Shown: positions 5,568 through 14,926 of the stretch, piece by piece | Layout: the number at the start of each line of letters is the position of its first letter | Position numbering within the stretch: position 1 is the first letter of the stretch | Source of the DNA: Flavobacteriales bacterium | Lineage (GTDB): Bacteria; Bacteroidota; Bacteroidia; Flavobacteriales_D; Sanyastnellaceae | Direction: 5' to 3' | DNA: 64,000 bases | NCBI GenBank assembly: GCA_002862785.1 | Contig: PKDZ01000005.1 | Coordinates: 37,875 to 101,874, forward strand | Position numbers and translations under genes: made by a program | The notes under the pieces: generated by a model | What the model was told of the DNA's origin: nothing | What the model saw: only the letters and a program-made list of their open reading frames with translations | The model's database searches: none

Positions 5568-6110
5568 TCAGGCTCGCTCGCGGCCGGCGAGCTCCTTCCA
5601 CATCATGCCGAGCATGGCCACCTCGGCCTCGGCATTGCCCCCTTGACGGGCTTCCGCCCCCTGTTTGAGGATCAACATGGCCTCGAGCAGGTCTCCCTCG
5701 TCCTCCACCCATTCGGGAAGGGCTTCAATGAGGGTCAGGGCCTCGACCATCACGGGCATTCCCATCTCTACGCACCGGGTAGCCAGCATTTTGAGGTGGC
5801 CCTCTCCTGTGCCTCCGCACTCCCAGAGGCAGGCCAGCAGTTCAGGCAGCTGCTCCGCGTTGTCCAAGTCCAGTGCCGCCTCCAACAGCGCCTCGCCCGC
5901 TCCTTCGAGCTTGAGGCTCCGCAGCACGGCGTCCACTTCCCTGCGAACAGCGCCTTCGTCCGTTTCCCGACGCAAGCGAACCAACTCCGCCACGGTGGAC
6001 ACCTCCCCTTCCTGCTTGACCCGCTTGAGGGCGGCGTCTCGCATTTCGGCAACAGGGGAATGCAGTGCGCCATGCAGTTCAACCAAGGCCTTGGACCGCT
6101 CTTTTTCCAT
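5568..6110 (-). CDS. Hypothetical helical (HEAT-like) protein
   Basis: 180-aa charged helical ORF, convergent to the carboxylase gene; promoter-like TACCTTTG 12 nt before ATG. Confidence 0.6.
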   Translation of the reverse strand: MEKERSKALVELHGALHSPVAEMRDAALKRVKQEGEVSTVAELVRLRRETDEGAVRREVDAVLRSLKLEGAGEALLEAALDLDNAEQLPELLACLWECGGTGEGHLKMLATRCVEMGMPVMVEALTLIEALPEWVEDEGDLLEAMLILKQGAEARQGGNAEAEVAMLGMMWKELAGRERA

Positions 6111-6128
6111 GCCGCAAAGGTAGCGGGC

Positions 6129-6791
6129 TCAGCCGCGATGGGCAGACAGGATGGCCTTCAATTCGCCCAGCATCATGGCTGTGGCACCCCAAATGAACGG
6201 CATGTGGGGAAAGGCAAAGCCCGGGGCCTCGATGGTGAAACCCGATGCCCCTCCAACCCGCACCCGTTGAGTGAGTCGGTGCCCCTCGTCCAACAGGTCG
6301 TCGATGCGGAGCCGGTGTACCGCCGCCACCTCCGTGCGGTCGAAATCGAAGACATTCGCCAGCCGCACGGCGGCGACATGGGGCCGGACGATGAACCGGC
6401 TGGGCACTACGTGAACTTCGGTCAAGGCCACCGGTGTCGTGAGCGGCTGCACTTCGATTGACAACCCCAACTCCTCCCTCCACTCGCGCAAGGCGCACTG
6501 GAGCAGGCTCTCACCTTGCTCCAAGGCGCCGCCTGGTAGAGCCATCTGTCCACCGTGGACCCCGCCGCCGGGAGCCCGCTCAATCAAGGCGACACAGCCG
6601 TCCTGTTCGACCCCGATGAGGACGGCCGCCTCTCGAAAATCTTCTCCCGACCGTCCCCTTGCTCGGGCTTCCGCCGCGGACGTCCGCCCATAGGGCATGA
6701 ACGGAACGTGAGCGTCAGCACCTGGCAAAGGGCATCCGGCCCGTTGCCAGGCATCAAGCAGGGAATCAGACTCTGGATGGGGACTGCTCAT
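6129..6791 (-). CDS. NUDIX hydrolase (CoA pyrophosphatase-like)
   Basis: GGQMALPGGALEQGESLLQCALREWREELG Nudix box. Confidence 0.88.
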   Translation of the reverse strand: MSSPHPESDSLLDAWQRAGCPLPGADAHVPFMPYGRTSAAEARARGRSGEDFREAAVLIGVEQDGCVALIERAPGGGVHGGQMALPGGALEQGESLLQCALREWREELGLSIEVQPLTTPVALTEVHVVPSRFIVRPHVAAVRLANVFDFDRTEVAAVHRLRIDDLLDEGHRLTQRVRVGGASGFTIEAPGFAFPHMPFIWGATAMMLGELKAILSAHRG

Positions 6792-10083: not shown

Positions 10084-13000
10084 TTAACGCATCAGTTCGA
10101 ACGTGCCGAGCATCTCCTCGGCGTCCGTCCGGGCCCCTTTCCAATTGAGGCGGTAGTTGTACATGCCCGCAGGCGCGTAGTGGTCTCCCCCGTTCACGTT
10201 GCCAATCCAGACTTCGTCGGGGTCCTCACTGTGGAAAACGAGCTCCCCCCAGCGATTGAAGATGTCCAACTCATACCGCGTCACATCGGAAATGACCACT
10301 TGGAAAGCGTCGTTGATCCCGTCGTTGTTGGGCGTGAAGGCATTGGGAATGTAGATGAGCACCGGGCCCTCCACCAAGGTATAAGCGCTGTCCGTGCAGC
10401 CGATGGCATTGGTCACGGTGAGCTGGGCGTAGTAGTCCCCGAGGCCATCGTATTCATGAATCGGATTGGCCTCCTCGCTGGTGGCCCCGTCGCCAAAGTT
10501 CCAGTCGAAGTCGCAGGTCGGACAGGCCGGCTCCGGCGTCGCGATGAACTCAATGCGCGTATCGCTGAGGTAGCTGGTGTAGAAGTCGCTGTAGACGTAT
10601 TGCACCTCGACATTGACAGTTTCGGTCAGCGTCTCTCCGCAGATGTCGGTCACCTCTACCGGGTAGCTGAAGGAATTGCTCGGGGAGACATATTGGTCCT
10701 CGCCAAAGGCGGGGATGCTCGGCCAGCTGAAGACGAATCCGCCCTCTCCGCCCGTGGCCACTGCACTCAGGGACAAGGACTCGCCCCGACAGATGACGGT
10801 GTCATTCGGGACCGCAAGGGTCATGGGCACATTGGGAATGACCAACGTGGCCGCCGTCTCGTCCTCACCTCCACACCCGTCCTGCACTTCGACGAAGATG
10901 GGCGTGGTCACAAAGCTCTGCACGGTAATCTGGGGATCGAATCCTCCGTAGGGAATGCCGCCCACGGACCACTCGTAGGTGTATTCGCCGGCTCCGGACT
11001 CAATGTCCACTGCGATGACCGTGTTGTCGATGCAGGAGGCATTGATCGTGTCCGGCAGGTCCACCAGGAGCGGCGGGTTGTCGATGACGATCGTGGTGCT
11101 GGCACTGCCGGAGGATTGGCAGTTGTCCGTGACCTCCACGGCGAACGTGGTCGGCAGACCATCCGAGTATTGGAGGGTCGCTGCGTCGCCCACCGGGTTG
11201 AAGTTCTGCGTCCACTCGTAGGTGTAGACCCCACTGCCGCCGTCGATGCCGGGCGACAGGGAGAAGGTCTCTGTACAGGGGCCGATGAGGGTGTCCGGCA
11301 AGGTCACCTCGAGCGGCGGGCTCACGACGATGACCTCCGTGGTGGCAGTCACGAATTGACCACAACCGTCGAACACCTCCAAGGTGATGGACATGTCCTG
11401 ATCCGTGGTCCAGTTGAGCGTCTCGGAGCCTCCAAGGAAGGAGAAGCCCTCCAGCCACCCCCAGTTGTAGAAGGGCTGGCCACCCGACCAATCCGGCGTG
11501 ATGCTGAACGGCACATTGCAGCTCACCTCGTACTCGTCCTCGAGCTCCACGATCAACTCCGGCACGTCGATGCTCACATTGATCATGGACGTTGCCGTCA
11601 GCCCACAGGCGTCCTCGACCGTGACGTGCACCTCGGTGGCGTTGTTCCACGTGCTCACGAAAAGGCTGTTGCCGAATCCAAAAGCCGGCAGGCCATCCTG
11701 GAACTCCCAGGAATACTCATACGGCGGATTGCCTCCATCCCCTTCGGCGAAGACTTCCGCAAATCCATTGCAATCGAGCACGAGGTCACCGCCGAGGATC
11801 TCCACGGTCAGCTCCGGGTACTCCTCGACCACGATGTTGAACAAACCATCATCACTGGGCATGCCGCAAGTGTCACTCACGACCACGATGCACTCGAACG
11901 CACCCGCTGCATCGGGGATGTAGTTGATTTGGTTGGTGTCCAGTCCCGGATTGCAGTCCCAGTCAAAAGTGTAGTTGCCATATCCTCCGCTGACCACCGG
12001 CTCCAGGGTCACGGAGTCTCCAACGCACAATTCGGTATCCCATCCGTCGACCACGAGCGGGTCTGGTTCATCGAGGATGTCAAATTCAAAGTAGCTCGTG
12101 AGGCCTCCCCCATTGCAAGCGGCGAGGTTGAGGATTTCCATGACCACCGTCTCGGTGCCCTCGACAATCCCGTCCTCGAAGGCATCGAGCGGAAACTCCT
12201 GCACGGTCACGAACGGCGGGAAGAAGACGGTGTCCGGCAACTCGGTGAAATCCACCCCGTTGGTGGCCGTGCTGGCCGAGTAATCGATGATGACCATCTC
12301 TTCGATGTCGATGATGGTCTCGATGGGACGCGTGAACGTCAGGACAGCCTCACCGCAATCCTCGAAGATGACCGGATTGTCGGTCACGAGGTCTGCGCCC
12401 ACATTGATGTTGAGGTCGACTTCCACCACGGAGTTGGACTCAAAGGAACCGGATTCCAGCACCACGATGGACTCGAGAGCCGTGTCCGAACCGTCGGCGA
12501 TGGCCAATCGGATATGGTAGGTCTCCCCGCATTCCACCTCGCTCTCGGCCGTAAGCTTGACGGTGTATCCGTTCTGGCAAAGGACCTCATTGGCCGGGTT
12601 GTCGACGTAGTAGGCCGAGTTGGTCACGTTGTTGACCGAGCTGATCGTGATGGCCAACTGCGGGTCGGAGCCTGGTACCTCGGCGAGGTTGATGGCATTG
12701 TCGGCGTAGGGACCGTTGATGCCCGGACCGCTCAGGAAGAAGCCGAAGATGTCGTTGTATTGGCTGTTGATCCACGCCAAGTATTCGTCGGATCCGAAGA
12801 CATAGTTGAATCGAATGGTGTCCCCGGTCGCCACGAAGTCGAACTCGATGGCGCAGACGTCATTGACGCTGTTTACGCTGAAATTCTGCCCGATCAGCGG
12901 CGGCACGCTATTGGCGATGGTCAACAGGTCGGGGTCGCCCGACACCTCCAAGTTGTCGTCGATGAAGTCGTCGACGCACCCATCGTCCACGTTCGCCGGA

Positions 13001-13272
13001 TTGTTGGCGACCTCCGTGCTCAGAATCAGGCCCGCTTCGATGGGGAATTCCGACGGATCAAAACCCGTGATGTGCCCTATTTGGGTGGGGCTGCCCGTGA
13101 AGACAACGTTGGTCGCCTCCACGCCTGTGCCGAGCAGAACATCATTGACGTATTCATCCGGAGTGAGGGTGCTGTTCACCTCCACTTGTGCGGAAGCCAA
13201 AAATCCGACTCCACAGAGCACGGCAACAACGATGGAACGGAAGAAAAGGTCTCGGTTCACGGTCAGGATCAT
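10084..13272 (-). CDS. Secreted choice-of-anchor L / Ig-like repeat / PKD protein with gliding motility-associated (T9SS) C-terminal domain
   Basis: N-terminal choice-of-anchor-L region (GLILSTEV...FNYVFGSDEYLAWINSQYNDIFGFFLSGPGINGPY); PKD FDWNFGDGATSEEANPIHEY; C-term IPNAFTPNNDGINDAFQ...IFNRWGELVF. Confidence 0.93.
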   Translation of the reverse strand: MILTVNRDLFFRSIVVAVLCGVGFLASAQVEVNSTLTPDEYVNDVLLGTGVEATNVVFTGSPTQIGHITGFDPSEFPIEAGLILSTEVANNPANVDDGCVDDFIDDNLEVSGDPDLLTIANSVPPLIGQNFSVNSVNDVCAIEFDFVATGDTIRFNYVFGSDEYLAWINSQYNDIFGFFLSGPGINGPYADNAINLAEVPGSDPQLAITISSVNNVTNSAYYVDNPANEVLCQNGYTVKLTAESEVECGETYHIRLAIADGSDTALESIVVLESGSFESNSVVEVDLNINVGADLVTDNPVIFEDCGEAVLTFTRPIETIIDIEEMVIIDYSASTATNGVDFTELPDTVFFPPFVTVQEFPLDAFEDGIVEGTETVVMEILNLAACNGGGLTSYFEFDILDEPDPLVVDGWDTELCVGDSVTLEPVVSGGYGNYTFDWDCNPGLDTNQINYIPDAAGAFECIVVVSDTCGMPSDDGLFNIVVEEYPELTVEILGGDLVLDCNGFAEVFAEGDGGNPPYEYSWEFQDGLPAFGFGNSLFVSTWNNATEVHVTVEDACGLTATSMINVSIDVPELIVELEDEYEVSCNVPFSITPDWSGGQPFYNWGWLEGFSFLGGSETLNWTTDQDMSITLEVFDGCGQFVTATTEVIVVSPPLEVTLPDTLIGPCTETFSLSPGIDGGSGVYTYEWTQNFNPVGDAATLQYSDGLPTTFAVEVTDNCQSSGSASTTIVIDNPPLLVDLPDTINASCIDNTVIAVDIESGAGEYTYEWSVGGIPYGGFDPQITVQSFVTTPIFVEVQDGCGGEDETAATLVIPNVPMTLAVPNDTVICRGESLSLSAVATGGEGGFVFSWPSIPAFGEDQYVSPSNSFSYPVEVTDICGETLTETVNVEVQYVYSDFYTSYLSDTRIEFIATPEPACPTCDFDWNFGDGATSEEANPIHEYDGLGDYYAQLTVTNAIGCTDSAYTLVEGPVLIYIPNAFTPNNDGINDAFQVVISDVTRYELDIFNRWGELVFHSEDPDEVWIGNVNGGDHYAPAGMYNYRLNWKGARTDAEEMLGTFELMR

Positions 13273-13368: not shown

Positions 13369-13878
13369 TCAGCGGACCTCAAACTCCGCCAATTCCTCTT
13401 TCAACCGCTTCCGTGCGTGAAAGATGCGGCTCTTGACCGTGCCCATTGGAATGTCCAGTTCCTCCGCAATCTCGTCATAGTGGAATCCATCGAGGAACAT
13501 GGTGAACGGCTTCCGGAAGTCGTACTTGAGCCGGTCAATCGCCGTCTGAATGTCATCGATGTTGATCAACGTGGTGACCGAGTCGTGATGATAGTCCTGA
13601 CTTGCATTCAGGAAATACTGATTCTCAGTCTGGTCGACAATGGTGTTCTGGAACCGCTTCTTTTTGTAGTTGTTGATGAAGATGTTCCGCATGATGGTGT
13701 AGAGCCATCCTTTGATGTTCGTTCCCTCCTTGAAATTGTTCTTGTAGCGAAGGGCCTTGACGAACGTCTCCTGCACCAAATCGTTGGCGTCGTCCCGATC
13801 GCGGGTGAAGCCCATGGCGAATCCGGACAGGAAATCCTGATGACTTGTCAGCAGGTTGTTGAATTCAATCGTCGACAT
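13369..13878 (-). CDS. RNA polymerase sigma-70 family factor (ECF type)
   Basis: FAMGFTRDRDDANDLVQETFVKALRYKNNFKEGTNIKGWLYTIMRNIFINNYKK; region 4 FHYDEIAEELDIPMGTVKSRIFHARKRLKEEL. Confidence 0.93.
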   Translation of the reverse strand: MSTIEFNNLLTSHQDFLSGFAMGFTRDRDDANDLVQETFVKALRYKNNFKEGTNIKGWLYTIMRNIFINNYKKKRFQNTIVDQTENQYFLNASQDYHHDSVTTLINIDDIQTAIDRLKYDFRKPFTMFLDGFHYDEIAEELDIPMGTVKSRIFHARKRLKEELAEFEVR

Positions 13879-14002
13879 CTTGTTCAGCGTTGTGGCGCAA
13901 AGATTGAACAAAACTTCGAGCCCACCAAGGGTTTGTTCAACTTTTTCGTGACAACAATGAACAAAATGACGGGTAGGCGCGAAAACACAGGGCTTTGTTC
14001 AG
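13879..14002. promoter_or_regulatory. Cluster of TGAACAAA operator-like sites between merR and ECF sigma genes
   Basis: CTGAACAAG (13879..13887, -), TTGAACAAA (13904..13912, +), TTGAACAAA (13932..13940, -), ATGAACAAA (13957..13965, +), CTGAACAAA (13994..14002, -). Confidence 0.7.
13898..13928 (-). promoter_or_regulatory. Candidate Bacteroidota-type core promoter for the ECF sigma gene
   Basis: Minus strand TTG (13928..13926) - 20 nt - AATCTTTG (13905..13898); one mismatch to TAnnTTTG; about 20 nt upstream of ATG 13878. Confidence 0.5.
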
Positions 14003-14006
14003 CCCT
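13989..14006 (-). terminator. Hairpin downstream of merR, possible terminator
   Basis: AGGGCT-ttgttc-AGCCCT perfect 6-bp inverted repeat; minus strand continues GTGTTTTC. Confidence 0.45.
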
Positions 14007-14026
14007 TTCCGTCATTCGTAAAACAA

Positions 14027-14926
14027 TCAAAGGTTGAGCAATGCCCCCAGGAGGGACTGACCATCGCCGTAACAAGCGATGCGCTCGGAGGGGCTTTCGA
14101 CCCCGTTGAACACCCGGCCCGCATAGTGGAAATGGAGCGCGGTGGTGGAGGATTCCCTGAGGACCCGATTGAAATAGTCCTTCACCCCATTCTCTGCAGG
14201 ATACGTGGTACAGTACGCCACACAGTTGAGGTTGGGGAATTGAGCGTCCAGCTGGGTGAGGTCCTCGAGCGGGACAGATTGTCCAAGGAACAGGCTCTTG
14301 TAACCGGCACTCCGCAGCAGGTAATGCACCATCAGCAAGCTGATGTCGTGAATCTCCCGCTCGGGCAGGAACAAGGCGAACACCGTTCCCGTGTAAGACG
14401 GGTCGACGGAGGGCAATTCATCCACTGCACGGAAAAGCCGCTGGCGAATCAGGTTGCTCACGAAATGCTCGTGTGCCGGGCAAATGGCGTTGGCTAGCCA
14501 CAGCATGCCGATTTGTCCCATGAAAGGAAGGTAGAGGCGCAACAGCAGGTTACTAAACCCGGATTGCTCTTCGAAGGTCTTGGAGACGCTGCGGAACAAC
14601 TGCTCGTCAAAGTTGAGCATGCTGATCTTCAACATACCGAGCCAGTGGTCTTCGCGATCGGAGACGGTCTCCAAGGCCCGGAGTGCCTTTCCCATTTCGC
14701 TCTCGCCCATGGCGGCGATGCGCGAAATCTTGTGGCCGTTCTGGTTGAGCAGGCTGACATTGAGCAACAGCTTCAAATCCTCGCTCGTGTAGTACCGGAT
14801 GTTGGTCGATGTGCGCCTTGGATTCAGCAGGCCATAGCGCTGTTCCCACGCCCGGATGGTGTGGGCTTTGATCCCGGTGAAATGCTCGAGATCCTTGATG
14901 GAAAATTCCTGCACGAGTGCGTTCAC
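14027..14926 (-). CDS. MerR-family regulator with cobalamin-binding domain (CarH/LitR-like)
   Basis: MerR HTH FSIKDLEHFTGIKAHTIRAWEQRYGLLNPRRTSTNIRYYTSEDLKLLLNVSLL; W-LANAICPAH-EH; EIHDIS; GTG start proposed at 14926. Confidence 0.9.
   Translation of the reverse strand: MNALVQEFSIKDLEHFTGIKAHTIRAWEQRYGLLNPRRTSTNIRYYTSEDLKLLLNVSLLNQNGHKISRIAAMGESEMGKALRALETVSDREDHWLGMLKISMLNFDEQLFRSVSKTFEEQSGFSNLLLRLYLPFMGQIGMLWLANAICPAHEHFVSNLIRQRLFRAVDELPSVDPSYTGTVFALFLPEREIHDISLLMVHYLLRSAGYKSLFLGQSVPLEDLTQLDAQFPNLNCVAYCTTYPAENGVKDYFNRVLRESSTTALHFHYAGRVFNGVESPSERIACYGDGQSLLGALLNL

Follow-up and report, generated by a model that had tools for sequence, protein, structure and literature searches.

A CarH/LitR-like regulator paired with an ECF sigma gene and a conserved inverted-dyad operator: a candidate light switch in Bacteroidota

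In a Flavobacteriales bacterium, the gene of a MerR-type regulator (14027..14926, minus strand) is followed by that of an ECF sigma factor (13369..13878, minus strand), which raises the question of what signal this regulator reads and which genes it switches. Coordinates refer to the window, the whole stretch of 64,000 nucleotides of DNA that was analysed. A sequence-only reading had placed both genes at these positions and on this strand, as confirmed here, and had proposed a B12-dependent, possibly light-responsive switch comparable to LitR and LitS of Streptomyces. We consider it probable, at about two chances in three, that the regulator is a dark repressor of the CarH/LitR type, working with AdoCbl, and that the ECF gene is its main direct target.

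The regulator (299 aa, GTG start) was characterised through its sequence, Pfam and PDB matches, an AlphaFold model and a fold search. It is composed of an N-terminal MerR winged-helix DNA-binding domain (aa 8-73, 14708..14905, minus strand; MerR_1, PF13411, 7.9e-14), followed by a four-helix-bundle region resembling B12-binding_2 (aa 99-164, 14435..14632, minus strand), the helices of which are present in the model and which scores 22.4 bits against PF02607, below the cut-off of 23. The B12 Rossmann half is diverged and has no Pfam match to PF02310. Chains of Thermus thermophilus CarH/LitR (TtCarH) are the top matches in PDB (phmmer, 2e-18), and the best NCBIfam match is the CarH equivalog NF052513, with 79.7 bits against a cut-off of 400. 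The AlphaFold model, built from 55 homologues (mean pLDDT 91.7, pTM 0.82), has full-length TtCarH (5c8e, 5c8d and 5c8f) as its top Foldseek matches (E 7e-14), with a TM of only about 0.55 because the domain orientation differs; shorter TtCarH stretches reach target-normalised TM values of 0.75-0.80, and CtMerR of Chloracidobacterium thermophilum (8jbt) also matches (E = 4e-7). Pfam, PDB and the model thus agree on a MerR DNA-binding domain and a cobalamin-binding domain fold, and by sequence the protein can be assigned to the CarH/LitR superfamily, with a LitS-like ECF partner. A genome search identified it as the single CarH-like protein of this genome.

The ECF protein (169 aa) comprises sigma regions 2 and 4 only (Sigma70_r2, PF04542; Sigma70_r4_2, PF08281). 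Whether the pair is kept in related genomes had been raised by the sequence-only reading; in most loci of the window's group, the ECF gene comes next after the regulator, mostly at a distance of 100-300 bp. The regulator is matched at E ≤ 1e-3 in 89 of the 101 genomes of the bacterium's family, a minority of these matches being short MerR proteins only, while close full-length homologues predominate, and the pair is conserved throughout the family. Three main layouts were distinguished among the named genomes and loci with better coverage: regulator and crt genes without ECF (23), regulator and ECF (18), and regulator, ECF and crt genes (10). The first is a regulator-crtI-crtB arrangement, found mostly in Flavobacteriaceae, in which the regulator heads the cluster; the second is that of the window's group; in the third, found in Cytophagales and relatives, the pair is located inside the carotenoid cluster. 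Immediately 3' of the ECF gene, the window encodes a large, secreted-looking protein (10084-13272, minus strand) with, as judged by eye, a C-terminal end of the gliding-motility type.

The 148-bp gap between regulator and ECF gene contains two 32-bp dyads of the form TTGTTYA-N18-TRAACAA, whose starts are separated by 53 bp, and a third, degenerate one, in line with the operator cluster that had been read there earlier. Dyad A (13880-13911, PWM score 26.0) ends one base before the ECF ATG, dyad B (13933-13964, TTGTTCA-N18-TGAACAA) scores 32.5, and the third (13995-14026) has one mismatch and scores 12.3. Together with the adjacency of the two genes, the dyads before the ECF gene support the proposed LitR-LitS-like pairing. 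Dyads with at most one mismatch occur three times in the 2.4-Mb genome, all at this locus. Across the named loci they number 95 in 45.5 kb beside regulator or ECF genes versus 16 in 1282 kb elsewhere, an enrichment of about 167-fold, and exact dyads occur 68 times at a spacing of 18 and at most 3 times at any other spacing. Two genomes of the same genus lack a perfect dyad and carry imperfect ones at their locus, which counts against the dark-repressor reading.

The element TAnnTTTG is the -7 promoter element of Bacteroidota. Within dyad A, AATCTTTG (13898..13905, minus strand) matches it at 7 of 8 positions and is, by its conservation in relatives, a probable -7 element; the identical octamer is present in 38 of 58 loci of the window's group, with close variants in most others. 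CCTTGG (13925..13930, minus strand) is a probable -33 element, as suggested by its position and its conservation in relatives. In 18 of the 23 crt-linked loci without ECF, an exact TAnnTTTG is fused to the left half-site. The dyad is phylum-wide across Bacteroidota, with a fixed 18-bp spacing and overlapping a TAnnTTTG promoter, and at the level of sequence the operator overlaps candidate primary-sigma promoters of light-protection genes.

In relatives, the dyad also stands before other genes. It is found in perfect form before crtI (L093), 15 bp before a rhodopsin-blh pair (genome G034, L205), in the intergenic region between a photolyase and a fasciclin gene (G012 and G034) and before a fasciclin gene (G008). 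The perfect dyads associated with photolyase and fasciclin genes (L207 3561, L208 3474, L206 2927) occupy corresponding places in two genomes. On two Lutibacter contigs (L085 20399, L103 19022), a perfect or one-mismatch dyad is located at the start of a TetR-type gene, which in L085 is assigned to TetR_C_23 (Pfam). The identity of the carotenoid, rhodopsin-blh and photolyase genes that bear the dyad argues for light as the signal.

The genome of the window has one rhodopsin gene, and a two-mismatch dyad (G000:C37:20256-20287; locus L204, 6257) lies upstream of it, with 91 bp between the dyad start and the gene start. This site ranks fourth by PWM among the genome sequence scored, after the three at the regulator-ECF locus. 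Two-mismatch dyads are otherwise at background level, with eight in the genome outside the regulator-ECF locus; by simple proportion, one of them would lie in the 150 bp upstream of a single rhodopsin gene with a probability below 1e-3. A further PWM match (L211:5438, about G000:C5:67437) was discarded, being located inside a coding gene. Because that match scored, the random-sequence null for the PWM is too kind, and the main support for the rhodopsin site therefore comes from the mismatch scan and the perfect dyad of G034. The rhodopsin gene may be a further direct target of the regulator. No relatives of this rhodopsin were found on viral contigs. Two photolyase/cryptochrome-type FAD-binding genes lie within 6 kb of each other (G000:C5:65578-71516, L211), with no convincing dyad nearby.

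The cobalamin pocket was set against that of TtCarH. In TtCarH, His177 of the ExHxxG motif is the lower cobalt ligand in the dark and His132, beside the Trp, the upper ligand after light, whereas Trp131 stacks on the adenosyl group and Glu141 hydrogen-bonds to it (PMC10442372). The regulator carries both motifs that had been read from its sequence, W-x9-EH (LWLANAICPAHEHFV) and EREIHDIS. The first (W143-x9-E153-H154, 14465..14500, minus strand) corresponds to the adenosyl-contact motif when aligned to 3whp and 5c8d, and the second (E191-x-H193-x-x-S196, 14339..14356, minus strand) to the B12 lower-ligand motif, with G replaced by S. In the phmmer alignment, W143, E153, H154 and H193 align with W131, E141, H142 and H177 of TtCarH, and Leu144 takes the position of His132. 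Since the TtCarH ligands are assigned to His177 and His132, the histidine of W-x9-EH is no ligand. The sequence-only reading took it for one, an assignment that finds no support, and at the position of the light-state ligand of TtCarH the regulator has a leucine.

The pocket was compared across 109 Bacteroidota homologues, counts that are partly non-independent because some organisms entered by two routes. GxxW, the glutamate of EH and both E and H of the lower motif do not vary (109/109 for W, E and the lower-ligand H), the histidine of EH is kept in 106 and GxxxP in nearly all. ExHxx[G] ends with S in 72 sequences, with G in 31 and with A in 6; the change from Gly to Ser, formerly singled out as potentially altering cofactor handling, is widespread. 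Directly after the Trp, these homologues have L, Q, T or I, never His. Of the published AdoCbl light signature, GxxW, EH, GxxH and GxxxP (PMC11796333), the regulator has GxxW, EH and GxxxP; GxxH is absent (REIH), its histidine being invariant.

The diverged Rossmann half, the absent GxxH, the low NF052513 score and the missing His132 count against an AdoCbl-type dark repressor, as does the precedent of Myxococcus xanthus CarA, a CarH paralogue able to repress without B12. The regulator could accordingly have lost B12 photochemistry, responding in a CarA-like, B12-independent manner to another cue, such as a partner protein or oxidative stress, with repression of the ECF gene via the dyads retained. 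The absence of His132 weighs in this direction, and the H132A variant of TtCarH stays mostly tetrameric in light (PMC10442372). However, CtMerR has Arg at this position and still binds AdoCbl, undergoes photolysis and passes from tetramer to monomer in light, and SasPcob has Gln there (PMC11796333). As CtMerR remains photoresponsive, a missing His132 need not abolish light sensing. The (near-)invariance of W, E, H and the lower-ligand His would moreover be hard to explain without cobalamin, and the dyad targets in relatives are light genes, so that we regard a loss of photochemistry as rather unlikely.

A supply of AdoCbl in the cell is plausible: the adenosyltransferase gene, the product of which makes AdoCbl, is present in the window's genome and in 92 of the 101 genomes searched, and the window's genome encodes two further B12-binding proteins with scores over the cut-off. 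That the regulator itself binds AdoCbl is what we infer from its fold and motifs. An AdoCbl-dependent repressor reads cofactor supply by design, and ECF expression might thus be set by AdoCbl abundance instead of light, the more so as no cobalamin riboswitch was detected in the genome that encodes the adenosyltransferase. The operator, however, stands before carotenoid, rhodopsin-blh and photolyase genes and beside no B12 genes in the sequences examined, which makes a B12-level sensor improbable.

For the favoured dark repressor, the following course can be proposed. Without light, the two inverted dyads before the ECF gene would be occupied by the regulator, most likely an oligomer loaded with AdoCbl, which would cover the -7 element of a Bacteroidota promoter of the ordinary TAnnTTTG type and block ECF transcription. 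Light would break the Co-C bond, upon which the oligomer would leave the DNA and the ECF factor would be made. That the regulator activates the ECF promoter, as classical MerR proteins can and as the wording of PMC12705666 has it for litS, the transcription of which is promoted by activated LitR, is the least probable alternative, since dyad A covers both the -7 element and the probable start site and the Flavobacteriaceae dyad is fused to TAnnTTTG, which is a repressor geometry.

The ECF factor would in turn drive a light-protection programme, for which carotenoid genes, located elsewhere in the genome, are the likeliest target. The sequence-only reading had seen no carotenoid genes; this holds for the window, as the locus is split, but another contig of the genome carries crt genes and a phytoene synthase gene. 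The crt operon is preceded, in the family's other genera, by an ECF-like element, GAACTTTT-N13-GTATAAGG. Perfect copies occur only there, in 3 of 9 genomes searched, with a fourth genome having a one-mismatch copy at the same place; as two-mismatch matches are at control level, the element is a lead only. In L132-L145 it is located upstream of a LysM-crtI operon and precedes a TAnnTTTG-like box. The window's genome (G000) lacks it, and a search before crtI in the genus to which the window belongs returned no ECF-type promoter like that of the other genera, a further point against the dark-repressor reading with its ECF target. The step from ECF to crt is suggested by gene order and by the analogy with LitR-LitS. 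Upstream of crtI (L126, about 5800-6130), a non-coding block shared by five genomes of the same genus contains AGGTTTCA and a GC-rich hairpin resembling a terminator; an Rfam search of this conserved block returned tRNAs only.

Compared with known systems, the regulator shares the MerR domain, helix bundle and Rossmann fold of TtCarH at about 19-25% identity in structural matches. The TtCarH operator consists of tandem 11-bp direct repeats, in contrast to the inverted dyads with 18-bp spacers found here; one of the six half-sites (B2) fully fits the TtCarH site nAnnTnnACAn and four more lack only the A at position 2. CtMerR likewise combines a MerR and a cobalamin domain without His132, with 15% identity in the aligned fold and Arg instead of Leu at that position. 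Streptomyces offers an established cascade from LitR over LitS to crtE, in which a CarH-type regulator controls an ECF-type sigma gene and LitS drives carotenoid transcription (PMC12705666); here the crt cluster lies on a separate contig, the ECF-crt link is putative, and phylum and promoter type differ. A merR(-rpoE) arrangement beside crt genes is already found in published Bacteroidetes annotations: carotenoid clusters with the same gene arrangement list merR and rpoE in Echinicola marina and merR alone in Nonlabens spongiae, the passages concerned naming these regulators with no mechanism, operator or B12 link (PMC8683446, PMC11855829). No study of a Bacteroidota CarH-ECF pair was found in the open-access literature searched.

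Judged by sequence, the system differs from known CarH/LitR proteins in its ligand residues and operator architecture, and the surprise lies in a phylum-wide operator that also stands before rhodopsin and photolyase genes. We consider the odds evenly balanced that this reflects a phylum-wide Bacteroidota light regulon, in which a CarH-like photoreceptor lacking His132 directly controls carotenoid or ECF, proteorhodopsin-blh and photolyase genes through inverted-dyad operators, and which would include a candidate regulator of light-dependent proteorhodopsin expression in marine flavobacteria. If so, the system would bear on how B12 photoreceptors signal where the His132 ligand switch of TtCarH is absent, it would offer a candidate, open to testing, for how proteorhodopsin transcription is controlled, and scanning for one operator sequence would predict the light-switched genes of a very widespread phylum.
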